Assembly: GCA_018821305.1 (NCBI GenBank)
Contig: JAHJMN010000058.1
Coordinates: forward strand, 1 to 40,666
Length of the DNA stretch: 40,666 bases
Source: Myxococcota bacterium
GTDB taxonomy: Bacteria > Myxococcota_A > Polyangia > HGW-17
Direction: 5' to 3'
In this document: positions 3,144 through 40,666 of the stretch, one piece after another
Layout: each line of letters opens with the position of its first letter
How positions within the stretch are numbered: the stretch's first letter is position 1
Notes under the pieces: generated by a model
Told to the model about the DNA's origin: nothing
Databases searched by the model: none
What the model saw: the letters and a program-made list of their open reading frames with translations, nothing else
Position numbers and translations under genes: made by a program

Positions 3144-3222
3144 GGCTCTGGTAAGTTTTTTTTTTTTGTTACTGTCCTGAAATACAGGTTTTCAAATTTT
3201 TTGCCCAATTTTTGCTCAGGAC

Positions 3223-3312
3223 TTTCACTGTTTTCAAAGAAAACAGTTGTCGTCTAAGCGAATTGCGTAGCAAATCGGCATGCGGGACGATTTCCTGCGG
3301 AAATACGTTTTA
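3223..3312. repeat. Family C nested palindromic element, copy 1 (90 bases)
   Basis: Inserted inside the family A copy. It has two hairpins: ACTGTTTTC-AAA-GAAAACAGT and ATTTCC-TGC-GGAAAT, with an extra imperfect palindrome (CGAATTGCGTAGCAAATCG) between them that copy 2 lacks. It is flanked by a possible three-base direct repeat GAC/GAC, absent from uninterrupted A copies, which suggests target-site duplication. Confidence 0.75.
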
Positions 3313-3353
3313 GACAGTAACCGCAAGGTGTTGAATTTATTGTAGTGGCCTGT

Positions 3354-3416
3354 CTCTCACTGTTTTCAATGAAAACAGTTGCCGACTTTGACGATTTCCT
3401 TCGGAAATACGTCTTA
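3354..3416. repeat. Family C nested palindromic element, copy 2 (63 bases)
   Basis: Second insertion in the same A copy and the same orientation as copy 1. Shares TCACTGTTTTCAA, GAAAACAGTTG, GACGATTTCC and CGGAAATACGT with it; the first hairpin keeps its nine-pair stem while the loop changes from AAA to AAT. It is flanked by a possible two-base repeat GT/GT. Confidence 0.75.
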
Positions 3417-3465
3417 GTTAGGATTTTTAATAAAATCCTTCGCGAAGCGAATTACAGGACACGAA

Positions 3466-5196
3466 CTATTTTGAAGAAGCGGAATTTAGTTCCTTCAACC
3501 TTTTTTTAGCGGCAGGAATCTGAAGAGCATCAGGATAATTTTTCAAGAAAGATGTCAAAGCTTTTTTCTCACTTCCCGTAGCCCCCTGCTTTCTGTATAC
3601 CCTTACGAGTCCCCAGGCGGCTTCTTTTGCAAGACTTCCCTTTGGTGAACTATTGAGATATTTAAGATAGTTAATGCGGGCGGAGCCAGGGTCATTTAGT
3701 TGTTCCAATTGTATTTCACCTATACTTACAAGACTGACAACAGAAAGACTATGATACGGATAGGCAGCAATTAATTTTTTGTATACTGACACCGCTTCAT
3801 TCCAGTTTTTTCTCAATTTCAACTTCCGGGCTTCACGGAAGAGTTCAAGGGCTGTAAATTCCTTATTCCTTATTGATTTTTCCACAACGGGGATATCATC
3901 TTCTATTTGACTTATCATTATTGGTGGAATTTTTTGCTCTTTGGGGTTTTCTATTCTCTGATTTTGAACGGGGACAGGTCGAACTATTTTCTTTGTTCCT
4001 GTTTTTTTATCCTTATCCTGGTTTTTCTTAACAATATTTTTCACATCAAGCGGTGCAAAAACTGGAAAATCATCTCCAGTTTCTGGCTCTTTAGTTTTCT
4101 TTTCAATATTACCTGCGTACCTTGAAGCAGTCTCCATTTTCAACTGTGCGCTGATAAAATTTCTTCCTTCACGTATTTCAATACTTTTCTCCCAGTCTTC
4201 GTGACCATCAAGACTCATTCTTAAAGTTCGAACTCCCGTTTTCAGTGTAACGACCATAGGGGTGTAACCAATACTCATGCCATCATGGATAACTCTGGCC
4301 CCTGGAGGTGTACTTTCCAACTCCAGTTTTCCATTGCTTGATTCTGAAAACTTCTCTGCCAGCCTCAGCCGGATAGATAGTTTGGATAACTCATTTTCTT
4401 CAATACTGGCTACTTTCATATCTGACGTACTTAGCGTCATCGAACTGGAAACCAGAACACCAACTTCATCTTTTTTAGCAACCTTTACTTTTCCCCGTAA
4501 CACGGTTATCCTGTCAGTATCACTTTCATGTCTTACTTCAAATATTGTTCCTACAACAACAATTCTTGAATTTTTTGTCCTCACAACAAACAGAGGATCC
4601 CCGGATTTCCTATCGACAACATTCAAAATATTGCCCTTATTAATGTGCACAACCACTTTTTCTACCGAATTTTCTGAAACTGTAATCTCACTACCGGGAT
4701 AAATAAGAATTCGAGAAATCCCACCGACGGTAATGACTGCTGGTGTTTTATTTGTTGTGATTTTTGTCCCTGCTGTAACAGTTTCCCCCGTAGAGGACAA
4801 TGACATATCCGAAATCAACAGTACTCTTCCATCTTTAGCTTTGACCCCAGGTAAAAACTTTAAAATTGCAAAACTCGTGATTACAATGCCAATAATTGCG
4901 GCTGCTATCAGGAAATATTTTTTATTCTCTACTTTTTTTCGAGAAGTTTTATCATTTACTTCAACAGGGGCCTCAAGTTTTCCAAGAACATCATTTATTA
5001 TACTTCGCCTTGTAACATCATCCACCGGAATTAAGGGGAGATTCCCGTCTTCAAGATTCAATTCTAAAAAAAGCAGCTCATCCACTCGACACTCAGAACA
5101 TGTATTTTTGTGGTTTTTATATTCTGAAGATTGTGCAGAATTCTTTCGTATAAGATCCTGAAAATCATCACATTTAGGATTATTCTTAGTCCACAT
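3466..5196 (-). CDS. Anti-sigma-like FecR/PEGA/TPR inner-membrane protein
   Basis: Predicted single-pass membrane regulator, partner of the ECF sigma factor whose gene it overlaps by 11 bases. The N-terminal cytoplasmic part holds HKNTCSEC (His29-x3-Cys33-x2-Cys36), the zinc-binding anti-sigma signature. A transmembrane helix lies at about 92-115. The periplasmic part has a FecR-like domain (about 120-255, ending near FEVRHESDTDRITVLRGKV), a PEGA domain (about 290-350, STPPGARVIHDGMSIGYTP), a Lys/Pro-rich linker, and a TPR/YbgF-like C-terminus (about 445-570) with a NYP repeat end. The start ATG lies within the end of the sigma gene, suggesting translational coupling. The stop codon TAG is contributed by the abutting family A repeat, so the original C-terminus may have been altered. 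The role as anti-sigma is inferred from motif and context. Confidence 0.8.
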   Translation of the reverse strand: MWTKNNPKCDDFQDLIRKNSAQSSEYKNHKNTCSECRVDELLFLELNLEDGNLPLIPVDDVTRRSIINDVLGKLEAPVEVNDKTSRKKVENKKYFLIAAAIIGIVITSFAILKFLPGVKAKDGRVLLISDMSLSSTGETVTAGTKITTNKTPAVITVGGISRILIYPGSEITVSENSVEKVVVHINKGNILNVVDRKSGDPLFVVRTKNSRIVVVGTIFEVRHESDTDRITVLRGKVKVAKKDEVGVLVSSSMTLSTSDMKVASIEENELSKLSIRLRLAEKFSESSNGKLELESTPPGARVIHDGMSIGYTPMVVTLKTGVRTLRMSLDGHEDWEKSIEIREGRNFISAQLKMETASRYAGNIEKKTKEPETGDDFPVFAPLDVKNIVKKNQDKDKKTGTKKIVRPVPVQNQRIENPKEQKIPPIMISQIEDDIPVVEKSIRNKEFTALELFREARKLKLRKNWNEAVSVYKKLIAAYPYHSLSVVSLVSIGEIQLEQLNDPGSARINYLKYLNSSPKGSLAKEAAWGLVRVYRKQGATGSEKKALTSFLKNYPDALQIPAAKKRLKELNSASSK

Positions 5197-8462: not shown

Positions 8463-8519
8463 ATGACTTAACCTTCATCCCTGATGGACGGCATAACTTT
8501 CGACTCCCAAGGAGGCCCC

Positions 8520-11126
8520 ATGGCGCTAGGAACAGTTCTCATAATTGACAACGAGGTTTCATTCGTTAAGAACGTTAAAGATTCTCTTCAAGAACTTGGC
8601 TACACTGTTGAAATTCAGGAAGACGGAGTTTCTGGACTTCAGGCAGTTAAAGACCTGATGCCTGCTGCTGTTATTCTATGTGCTGAAGTTCCTAAAATGA
8701 GCGGCTATGCAGTAATTACTAGAATAAAGAAAAATCCAGAACTGCTTAGTATTCCAGTGATGATTACTTCCGCTGAAGCCACGGAAGAAACATTCAAAAG
8801 GCATAGCGAACTTAAAAACCGTGCGGAATCATATATGTTTAAGCAGGGTTTCGAGATTAACAATTTTGTCGCCGAGTTCAAAAAAATGATGAACTCCGGA
8901 GAAGTTGATTCCCTTACATCAGAATTTTCTGATTTCCCAGACTTTGGTGATATTGTTGACGATATTGACAAAGAAACCAATGCAGCCCTGGATGATGTAA
9001 TTGAAGGAGCATTCTCTGACCCTGCTCCCGAACAATCAGAAGAGCCTGTATTTTTCCCATCCGGTGAAATTGAAGCAATCGCTGATGATGAACCTGAAAT
9101 CTCAACAAATTCAGATTCCCCTGAACTTGTAAATCCAGGGGAATCAGTTGAAATTGAAGTAGCGGAGTCAGAACCTACACCCGTGCCTGAGCCAGAATCT
9201 CAGGAGCCTACACCAGTCCCAGAACCAGAAACTCAGGCGGAGCCTACACCAGTCCCAGAACCAGAACCACAACAGGAAGTGTCTGAACAATATGAAAACT
9301 TTGATATTTCTATTGATGATGCTGTTCCTGGAACAGTTGCTCAGGAAATGTCGGAAGAAATAATACCAGAGCAGCCATCTGAAGTTTCCATGAGTGCAAG
9401 CCTTGGGCTTGATGAAATAGTTGAAGAAACGTCAAAACTTAACAACGACGTCCTGCTTCAAATTGAAGAACTTAAAAAAGAAAAGGAAATGCTTTCACGG
9501 GAAATTACTCAGTTGAAAGCTGGTTCCGGAACTGCCACGCAGTTTTCAAAAGAGAGAGAATTTCTTAATCTCAGAGAAACTATTAATAAAAAAGAACGTG
9601 AAATAATCGATCTCAGATCAGAACTTGATGAAAAAGATCAGCAGATTCTCCAGAAAAAGAACAAAATTCGTGAACTGGAAAGATCCAAAGCTGATATTGA
9701 GGACTCAATCCTTAATCACGAAAGAAGTGAAGTTGAACTCAATGAATCCCTTTCCGGTGCCCGGGATGAAATAGAGTCACTCAAATCTACAATTGAAACA
9801 CTTAAAAGCGAACTCGAAAACGCTAAAAATGAAATAATTACGCTTAAATCAAACCTGGAAACAGCCCTCAGAGAGATTGAGAATCTTAAGGTAGAGCATG
9901 CTCAGGAGATTGAGCGACGCAACAATATACATGTTGGCGAAATTGCAAACCTTAAGTCTAAACATGAAAAAGAGACTGAGGATCTCAACAACAAATACAC
10001 TAGTGAAATAAATGACTTGAACTCCAAATACACCGGTGAAATTGAAGAACTCAAGTCTGAGCATGCTCAAACTGTTGAAACAATGAGCAGTTCATTTGCT
10101 TCTGAAAAATCTGATTTAATTTCAAATAACGAGAATACTATAAATACTCTCAATGCAGCCCATGCAGACGAACTTGAGCGACTTACTAACGAACATACTG
10201 GTCTCGTTATCAATCTTAAACACTCTCATGAGGAAGCTGTCAACTCTCTCAATTCAAATCATGCTCAGGAAATCGAAAATCTTAATAACGAACATGCCGT
10301 GGCAATGGCCAAAGCAAAGGAAGCACATGATGAGGAAACTCAAAACCTCATCGCAGCCCACGAAGCTCTAGTTTCAGACATTAACACCAAGCACGCTCAG
10401 GAAATTGAGAATCTTAACACCGAGCATGCCACGGCAATGGCCGAGGCAAAAGCAACATATGAAGAGGAAACTCAAAACCTCATCGCAGCCCACGAAGCTC
10501 TGGTTTCTGATCTCAAAGCTAAAAATGTTCAGGAAATCGAAAATCTTAATAATGAACATGCTGGTCTGGTCGCAACAATAAGATCTGAAAATGAAGAACT
10601 TGTTGCCAATCTTCGCGGTGAACATGCTCAGGAAATTGAAAATATCAACACTGAACATGCTCAGGAAATTTCTAATCTTAATCAAGCTCATACTGAAGAA
10701 AATGAGCGTCTTAATAATGAACACACAGGTAAGGTTATTAATCTCAAAAACAAACATGAATCTGAGATTGAAAATCTTAAGGCGGAACATGCTCAGAATG
10801 TTGAAAATATTGAGAGTGAAAATGCCGCAACGCTGGCTGATCTTAACCTTCAACATGACACTTTGAAAAATCAACTTGAAACTGCAATTTCAGGTCTTGA
10901 ACAGGAAAAAGAGCAACTTACGGGCAAAGTCTTTGATCTTGAACAATTAAAAATGCGTAATGAAACTGAAATAGAGGAATTACGTGAAAACATCGCTGAC
11001 CTTGAAAGTCAGCTTGAAAATGCTCTTGCGGGAATCGCAACTGACAATGATGTTGCCAGGAAAGCGATTGCTTCTCTTTCTTCAGCTCTTACTGCCCTCA
11101 ATGATCGCTTCAATTCAAAAGAATAA
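8520..11126 (+). CDS. AglZ/FrzS-like pseudo-receiver and long coiled-coil protein
   Basis: Resembles Myxococcus AglZ and FrzS, cytoplasmic polarity proteins of gliding and twitching motility with an N-terminal receiver fold and a long coiled coil. Residues about 4-118 are the receiver domain: VLIIDNE, PKMSGY, and K108 at the conserved Lys position. The usual phospho-accepting Asp is replaced by Cys54 (AVILCAEVP), so it should be a pseudo-receiver working by protein contact. An acidic Pro/Glu-rich linker (about 130-280) follows, then a continuous coiled coil (about 300-845) rich in E, L, N and K, including tandem 44-residue repeats. The start at 8520 (12 codons after an alternative ATG) is chosen for its AAGGAGG. 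The dGTPase gene follows after 26 bases. No Frz, Mgl or Agl partner is in the window, so a motility role is inference. Confidence 0.8.
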   Translation: MALGTVLIIDNEVSFVKNVKDSLQELGYTVEIQEDGVSGLQAVKDLMPAAVILCAEVPKMSGYAVITRIKKNPELLSIPVMITSAEATEETFKRHSELKNRAESYMFKQGFEINNFVAEFKKMMNSGEVDSLTSEFSDFPDFGDIVDDIDKETNAALDDVIEGAFSDPAPEQSEEPVFFPSGEIEAIADDEPEISTNSDSPELVNPGESVEIEVAESEPTPVPEPESQEPTPVPEPETQAEPTPVPEPEPQQEVSEQYENFDISIDDAVPGTVAQEMSEEIIPEQPSEVSMSASLGLDEIVEETSKLNNDVLLQIEELKKEKEMLSREITQLKAGSGTATQFSKEREFLNLRETINKKEREIIDLRSELDEKDQQILQKKNKIRELERSKADIEDSILNHERSEVELNESLSGARDEIESLKSTIETLKSELENAKNEIITLKSNLETALREIENLKVEHAQEIERRNNIHVGEIANLKSKHEKETEDLNNKYTSEINDLNSKYTGEIEELKSEHAQTVETMSSSFASEKSDLISNNENTINTLNAAHADELERLTNEHTGLVINLKHSHEEAVNSLNSNHAQEIENLNNEHAVAMAKAKEAHDEETQNLIAAHEALVSDINTKHAQEIENLNTEHATAMAEAKATYEEETQNLIAAHEALVSDLKAKNVQEIENLNNEHAGLVATIRSENEELVANLRGEHAQEIENINTEHAQEISNLNQAHTEENERLNNEHTGKVINLKNKHESEIENLKAEHAQNVENIESENAATLADLNLQHDTLKNQLETAISGLEQEKEQLTGKVFDLEQLKMRNETEIEELRENIADLESQLENALAGIATDNDVARKAIASLSSALTALNDRFNSKE
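10266..10529 (+). repeat. In-frame tandem 132-base repeat in the coiled-coil gene
   Basis: Units 10266-10397 and 10398-10529 are highly similar (shared GAGGAAACTCAAAACC and ATCGCAGCCCACGAAGCTCT) and encode 44 residues each. A third, shortened unit starts at 10530 with the same CAGGAAATCGAAAATCTTAA. The period is not a multiple of seven (44 = 6x7 + 2), as expected for hendecad-type or stutter-containing coiled coils (44 = 4x11). Confidence 0.85.
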
Positions 11127-15623: not shown

Positions 15624-15687
15624 TAGTTCGTATCCTGTAATCCGCTTCGCGAAGGTTTTCGGAAAATTCCTGACAGGACATTCACTA
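15624..15687 (+). repeat. Family A repeat, short variant copy
   Basis: TAGTTCGTATCCTGTAATCC, then CTTCGCGAAGGTTTTCGGAAAATTCC and TGACAGGACATTCACTA. It shares the TTTTCGGA middle with the copy at 7017 and keeps a TTTTC/GAAAA hairpin there. Confidence 0.8.
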
Positions 15688-33576: not shown

Positions 33577-33722
33577 TAGTTCGTGTCCTGTAATTCGCTT
33601 CGCGAAGAAATTTATTAAAATTTCTAACAGGCCACTAGTAATATTTTCAACACCTTGAGGTTACTGTCCTGAGCAAAAATTGGGCGAAAAATTTGATTTT
33701 TGGTATTTCAGGACAGTAACTA
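33577..33722 (+). repeat. Family A repeat, best full-length copy (146 bases)
   Basis: Reference copy. Imperfect terminal inverted repeats TAGTTCGTGTCCTGTAATTC and (reversed) TAGTTACTGTCCTGAAATAC, bounded by TA at both ends. Inside are TTCGCTTCGCGAAG, the hairpin GAAATTTATTAAAATTTC, CTAACAGGCCACTAG, a CAACACCTTGAGG segment, and a second hairpin whose 13-base arms GTTACTGTCCTGA / TCAGGACAGTAAC are perfect. The short form ends at CAGGCCACTA. The element has no open frame of note. Confidence 0.88.
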
Positions 33723-34902: not shown

Positions 34903-34967
34903 TAGTTCGTGTCCTGTAATTCGCTTCGCGAAGGATTTTATTAAAAATCCTAACAGGCCACGTACTA
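34903..34967 (+). repeat. Family A repeat, clean short copy (65 bases)
   Basis: TAGTTCGTGTCCTGTAATTCG, TTCGCGAAGGATTTTATTAA, AAATCCTAACAGGCCACG, then TACTA. It is a single long imperfect palindrome, with the GGATTTT-ATTA-AAAATCC stem intact. Lies in the divergent gap before the C25 protease gene. Confidence 0.85.
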
Positions 34968-40529: not shown

Positions 40530-40666
40530 TAGTTACTGTCCTGAAATACCGAAAATCAAATTTTTCGCCCGATTTTTGCTCAGGACAGTAACCGCAAGGT
40601 GTTGAATTTATTATAGTGGCCTGTTAGGATTTTTAATAAAATCCTTCGCGAAGCGAATTACAGGAC
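40530..40666 (-). repeat. Family A repeat, full-length copy cut by the window edge
   Basis: Reverse orientation: TAGTTACTGTCCTGAAATAC, the perfect arm TCAGGACAGTAAC, CGCAAGGTGTTGAATTTATT, GGATTTTTAATAAAATCC and TTCGCGAAGCGAATTACAG, ending at GGAC with the outer end missing beyond the window. Confidence 0.88.

Follow-up and report, generated by a model that had tools for sequence, protein, structure and literature searches.

The window, that is, the whole stretch of 40,666 nucleotides that was analysed, belongs to a 5.22-Mb draft genome of a Myxococcota bacterium in 216 contigs. Its ribonucleotide reductase has as top match a protein of an uncultured 'Deltaproteobacteria' MAG (77% identity), followed by deltaproteobacterial and Myxococcota MAGs. 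An interrupted copy of the repeat family A is found at 3168-3466, between a QueF gene and a PEGA/FecR-domain gene (3466-5196, other strand). A genome of the same genus also has these two genes side by side; there the alignments are no more than 116 bases apart, compared to 521 here, which leaves too little room for the A copy. The end of this copy supplies the TAG stop of the PEGA/FecR-domain gene, at 3466-3468 of the window. Elsewhere in the window, ORF 8484-11126 contains 33-nt repeats at 9877-10825, its product is probably a coiled-coil-like protein, and a scan of viral contigs with this ORF gave no relatives. Comparison of the window with Rfam gave 0 matches.

The initial annotation described region 3168-3466 as one family A copy interrupted by two small hairpin elements of a family C. 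The parts of this region are the following:

3162-3167, no strand: left copy of the A target duplication, TTTTTT, 6 bp, matching the right copy at 5 of 6 positions
3168-3466, + strand: family A MITE copy with two interruptions, the element proper being GTTACTGTCCTG ... CAGGACACGAAC (nhmmer chain with gaps g1=93 and g2=65; BLAST)
3168-3222, + strand: left part of the alpha unit, ending at site 1
3220-3222, + strand: GAC, left flanking repeat of C1, as read from the sequence
3223-3312, + strand: C1, long form, 90 nt, at site 1
3256-3285, + strand: extra segment of 30 nt replacing TT, in long-form C only (alignment; also in L013, L017, L019 and L021)
3313-3315, + strand: GAC, right flanking repeat of C1
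3316-3353, + strand: middle of A, comprising the end of the alpha right arm, the linker and the beta left arm up to site 2
3352-3354: GTC, left flanking repeat of C2, as read from the sequence
3355-3416, + strand: C2, short form, 62 nt, at site 2 (RNA fold -21.1 kcal/mol, z -5.4)
3417-3419, + strand: GTT, right flanking repeat of C2 (GT/GT in the alternative reading of the initial annotation)
3419-3466, + strand: right part of the beta unit
3467-3472, no strand: right copy of the A target duplication, TATTTT, 6 bp, whose first TA together with the preceding C forms the other-strand TAG stop of ORF 3466-5196

Excision of 3223-3315 and 3354-3418 had been proposed to restore an uninterrupted A. 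It yields a 145-nt sequence that aligns with 52 empty A copies, with a best identity of 96.6% (L136:708), no gap column in 10 of the alignments and at most one in 44. C1 and C2 have both hairpins in common, in the same orientation, with a local score of 30 compared to a maximum of 13 in 1000 shuffles. The short flanking repeats that had been suspected are also present, as GAC/GAC around C1 and GTC/GTT (or GT/GT) around C2; the last G may be assigned either to C or to the duplication, because both sites carry a G. The nested arrangement at 3168-3466 is confirmed as real.

Family A is a MITE

Family A is built of a unit alpha (ends GTTACTGTCCTG / CAGGACAGTAAC), a linker and a folded unit beta ending in CAGGACACGAAC, over ~147 bp, and both units are also found as stand-alone copies. 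The ends of the aligned copies exhibit terminal inverted repeats (GTTACTGTCCTG / CAGGACACGAAC). The 6-bp target duplication is exact in 39 of 75 near-complete A copies, tandem copies included, whereas shuffles gave a mean of 5.44 and a maximum of 12; the agreement per position is 60-67 of 75 and the preferred target is TANNTA. These 75 copies form a non-random set, many of them having been fetched for carrying C or for resembling an empty copy. Given the two palindromic units with their linker, the terminal inverted repeats, the 6-bp duplication and the small, non-coding and multicopy nature of the element, family A is a MITE by the usual marks.

The beta core has 249 matches in its own genome and none in 316 other genomes of the class, and none of the family's other seven genomes yielded a whole empty A. 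A second MITE-like family, A', has the structure alpha'-beta' with the linker GAATGAAGACCTTGAAATTATT, and L128:14087-14308 is an A/A' mosaic. Further copies of these repeats are:

15624-15687 of the window, - strand: stand-alone beta-like unit without C
33577-33722 of the window, - strand: A copy with both sites empty
34903-34967 of the window, - strand: stand-alone beta unit without C
40530-40666 of the window, + strand: A copy with both sites empty, clipped by the window end
L095:13712-13865: A' copy

Tandem A copies, with a spacing of ~147-148 bp and one TANNTA target per junction, are found at L063, L064, L065 and L118. Such arrays are as expected if A re-inserts into its own flanking target, or from unequal crossing over.

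In a scan of 0.73 Mb for a partner insertion sequence of A, end pairs more than 1 kb apart with a matching duplication were found in L095 only. The shorter of them, a candidate autonomous partner (L095:12618-13858), was rejected, since it encloses an ordinary gene rather than a transposon and one end lies in the A' copy. The genome contains two partial DDE_3 matches, without A-like end pairs.

Segment C and its positions

Segment C is 62-90 nt long and comprises two hairpins. The pair of short palindromes is supported by folding as RNA (-21.1 kcal/mol, z -5.4) and as DNA (z -5.6), and an inverted TCGTC/GACGA lies between the two hairpins in many copies. The ends of C, TCTCACTG and CGTTTTA, are not inverted, and no terminal inverted repeats were found in it. 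Compared to the short form, the long form has ~28 extra nt in the middle of the element; in C1 this extra segment (3256-3285) contains AAGCGAATT, a sequence also present in beta, and it may have been captured from a beta unit. Among short copies, variation is greatest in the first loop, and the stems hardly vary. The 3-nt loop of the first hairpin is hypervariable, with ten different triplets among the 45 copies read (of 49), and its stem is nearly invariant.

C copies were found with a whole-genome pattern for each hairpin, and the places were then read in context. A total of 52 copies with both parts was obtained (51 and L028), of which 49 carry the full second hairpin and three, L093, L022 and L048, do not. 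All 52 lie inside A or A' at site 1 or site 2, in one orientation throughout. In A', C is found at the position homologous to site 1 (L052/L133, L054, L057). None of the 52 lies in the mirror-image arm of the A palindrome, though the alpha left arm holds the same 12 bp inverted, and none was found in stand-alone alpha, which accounts for 13 of the 50 alpha matches in the sample. The proposal that C targets palindromic DNA as such is, with this restriction to the same two A/A' positions, not borne out.

The flanks of the 49 copies correspond to site 1 on both sides in 35 and to site 2 on both sides in nine; two have a site-2 left and a site-1 right flank, two the reverse, and one a site-1 left flank with a foreign right flank. 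Left flanks were labelled by eye for L028, L019 and L054 (site 1), for L035 (site 2), and for L093, L022 and L048, which have site 1 or site 2. Truncated C relics, not counted among the 52, are found at L057, L126, L164, L035 (first hairpin) and L059-L062. Searches for C in the other seven genomes of the family gave none, and the C pattern had 0 matches in a genome-contig collection from which the records of its own or very near genomes may be absent.

A third insert of ~38 nt, of the GCTTACGCTTCCGCGCTTCGCTTCGCGAGAGCGCTATA type, occupies the A linker in L108:9768-9951, L017, L040, L058 and L055, so that nesting exceeds two layers. In L040, an A::C copy is apparently inserted in a beta unit with the duplication GAATTA within GCGAATTACAGG, which gives three nesting levels.

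Empty sites of C

The initial annotation had considered that every A copy might carry C as an ancestral part. Both sites are empty in 53 of the 75 A copies; 16 have only site 1 occupied, three only site 2 and three both. In addition, all 21 full A copies of a content-blind sample (40 stretches, 0.69 Mb) are without C. The stretches were picked irrespective of content, except that C14 and C21, known holders of C, were skipped in the first batch. One of the 21, an A/A' mosaic, shows an unrelated stretch of 77 bases in the site-2 gap, and a truncated A in the same sample (L094:6057) carries C.

The genome-wide search for C yielded many copies, together with precise empty sites and short flanking repeats. 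GAC/GAC is exact at 29 of 32 site-1 copies. At site 2, the flanking repeats of eight copies are GTC/GTT in five and GTT/GTC, GTT/GTT and GTC/GTC in one each. The possible target duplication of C consists of 2-3 bp repeats at two sites only, and because only two sites are involved, these repeats perhaps reflect as few as two events. With its precise empty sites and 2-3 bp flanking repeats, C is thus an insertion into A; the reading of C as ancestral to A was rejected on account of the empty sites and of the stand-alone alpha and beta units without C.

Histories of C and A

For the 75 A copies, a tree was built after removal of C. Site-1 occupancy requires 17 changes on it, compared to a mean of 17.2 after shuffling, and an occupied A copy has an occupied nearest A neighbour in 4 of 19 cases (4.6 expected). 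Near-identical A copies differ in occupancy, L029 from the empty L067 and L025 from the empty L116, each pair differing in 2 of 146 columns. Conversely, nine site-1 pairs with identical C (0 of 61 columns) have flanks that diverge, with differences at 3-9 of 43-44 left-hand positions and 1-14 of 35-36 right-hand ones; 30 of the 33 site-1 carriers were used in this comparison. The excised A of the window differs from that of L023 in one of 146 columns of the tree alignment, and their flanks are identical over 80 nt, whereas between C1 and the C of L023 there are differences at 7 of 61 positions, in addition to the 28-nt segment.

A and C distances correlate in the 19 full carriers (r 0.45, p 0.012), so that part of the spread of C is co-inheritance. 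The link between C and left-flank distances depends on the set, with r 0.36 (p 0.006) for n 19 and r 0.07 (p 0.25) for n 30. C sequences group by site, with 3 changes compared to group means of 8-12 after shuffling. The trees rest on 61 columns for C and 146 for A, and most of their forks are weak.

These comparisons show that the present distribution of C among A copies does not follow A ancestry. The earlier claim that C moves, or moved, holds in that C has moved among A copies independently of their ancestry; current transposition of C on its own is not borne out.

Discussion

We favour, with roughly an even chance of its being correct, a reading in which a few founding insertions of C were followed mainly by homologous exchange between A copies, over site-specific transposition. 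A would be moved in trans by a DDE-type transposase, and C would have entered A a few times, at least once per site. It would then have spread over the dispersed A copies mainly through homologous exchange or gene conversion between them, with the help of recombination between C copies. C would also ride along when A::C copies transpose, frequent free transposition not being the main route, and, encoding nothing, it would depend on host recombination and on the transposase of A.

The restriction of all 52 copies to two fixed positions is fitted by founding insertions and homologous redistribution at least as well as by a palindrome-targeting transposase, and homologous exchange would explain the absence of C from the mirror arm of the 12-bp palindrome and from stand-alone alpha. 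It would also explain why left-arm and middle distances of A are linked in empty copies (r 0.45, n 51, two diverged empty copies left out; r 0.22-0.63 in subsampled empty copies) and this linkage is lost in site-1 carriers (r 0.11, n 19). The four C copies with one flank from each site are what recombination between two C copies would yield. Against this reading, similarity shows no clear gradient near the left edge of C, whereas a simple conversion tract should leave one. Moreover, some site-1 C copies fall by sequence in the site-2 group (L058 with L024, the A' pair and L011), for which flank homology alone is an insufficient explanation.

It is possible, but less probable than founding insertions with exchange, that C is a site-specific non-autonomous transposon, which a transposase acting in trans has repeatedly and independently inserted at the same nucleotides of A and A', with A as its sole niche. 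The scattered occupancy speaks for it, as do the cases in which diverged A copies hold identical C or near-identical A copies hold different C, the exact position with 2-3 bp repeats at both sites, the C types common to both sites and the occurrence of C in the diverged A' family (L133, L054, L057). Against a transposon of this kind stand the empty mirror-image arm (0 of 52), its absence from stand-alone alpha and the lack of terminal inverted repeats in C. Nor did a search of the genome for Y1, DDE_3 and IS110 transposases identify an enzyme that would mobilise C: the IS110 DEDD transposase PF02371 has 0 matches there, while 4 of 14 control genomes are positive, and no C-like end pair was seen around the three Y1 transposases or the two partial DDE_3 matches. 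No C directly flanks the three Y1 transposases, the nearest one seen lying ~1.4 kb off (L133). IS200-type insertion has a fixed right end; an IS200/IS605-type insertion of C was rejected, as the triplet after C varies by site (GAC or GTT). Slightly more doubtful still is the view of C as a dedicated MITE hyperparasite, i.e. a 62-nt non-coding two-hairpin element, mobile itself, that recognises A (and A') and repeatedly enters it at the same one or two nucleotides, A being its only habitat. Beside one Y1 transposase gene, a short direct-repeat array (L131:2133-2574) appears CRISPR-like, judging from repeating ORF translations.

The remaining explanations are a good deal less probable. A::C might represent one or two A subfamilies in which C was inherited once per site and multiplied by A's own transposition, as the grouping of C sequences by site, the A-C distance correlation in the 19 carriers and the many A::C copies with their own exact 6-bp duplications (e.g. 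L013, L014, L025, L026 and L029) would suggest. We regard this as improbable, given that occupied A copies do not cluster and that identical C is found in A copies whose left flanks differ by ~10-20%; a single A::C subfamily is unsupported by the A tree. Hairpins between short repeats can favour deletion, and C could on this ground, and from its scattered occupancy, be an ancestral part of A that was precisely lost again and again, for instance through slippage involving the GAC repeats on either side of the hairpins. This is very improbable, since stand-alone alpha and beta are without C and loss alone cannot place different C types in A copies with identical flanks, as in the window and L023. 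Least credible, and close to negligible, is an assembly artefact of a repeat-rich draft genome: the 216 contigs and the several A copies near contig ends could raise this suspicion, but the 52 C loci lie in separate contexts and exact A target duplications surround A::C copies.

ERIC elements have internal insertions of ~70 bp. A resembles ERIC, Correia/NEMIS, RUP and Nezha MITEs in being shorter than 200 bp and non-coding, with terminal inverted repeats, a target duplication and a strong fold; its duplication is of 6 bp compared to the TA of IS630-type MITEs, and Correia elements come in sizes of 107 and 155 bp, the difference being a 50-bp internal sequence (PMC2229807, PMC10969869). In pneumococci, the small repeats BOX, RUP and SPRITE insert into one another and, as here, several hairpin-forming families share one genome; whereas the part of that account available to us reports no fixed position, C is found only inside A/A', at two exact positions, and its empty sites are abundant (PMC3049150). 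The GTAG/CGTC REP dimers of A. variabilis and H. neapolitanus lie inside defined palindromes, and C is similarly a pair of short hairpins, with the inverted TCGTC/GACGA between them in many copies. In those two genomes, however, REP-free target palindromes were not found, whereas the empty sites of C are the majority and its target is a MITE with its own duplication (PMC3733652). IS1397, IS621, ISPpu9/10 and ISRm22 target REP/BIME, so that they share with C a fixed place in a dispersed palindromic repeat; unlike these transposase-encoding elements, C has 62-90 nt and encodes none (PMC1525189).

It is thus already in print that small repeats insert into one another and that palindromes are entered by other elements. 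A literature search, with most subscription papers outside its scope, found no non-coding segment confined to fixed MITE positions with abundant empty targets.

The usual view of small non-coding repeats is that they are passengers of a single transposase. In this genome two repeat layers are separable, many of the targets being empty and tens of them occupied, and A::C lets one ask whether a gene-less 62-nt segment comes to populate a dispersed repeat through transposition or through gene conversion. If by conversion, sequence exchange between dispersed copies of a bacterial MITE would be frequent enough for an insert to spread; if by transposition, C would be a very small site-specific mobile element.
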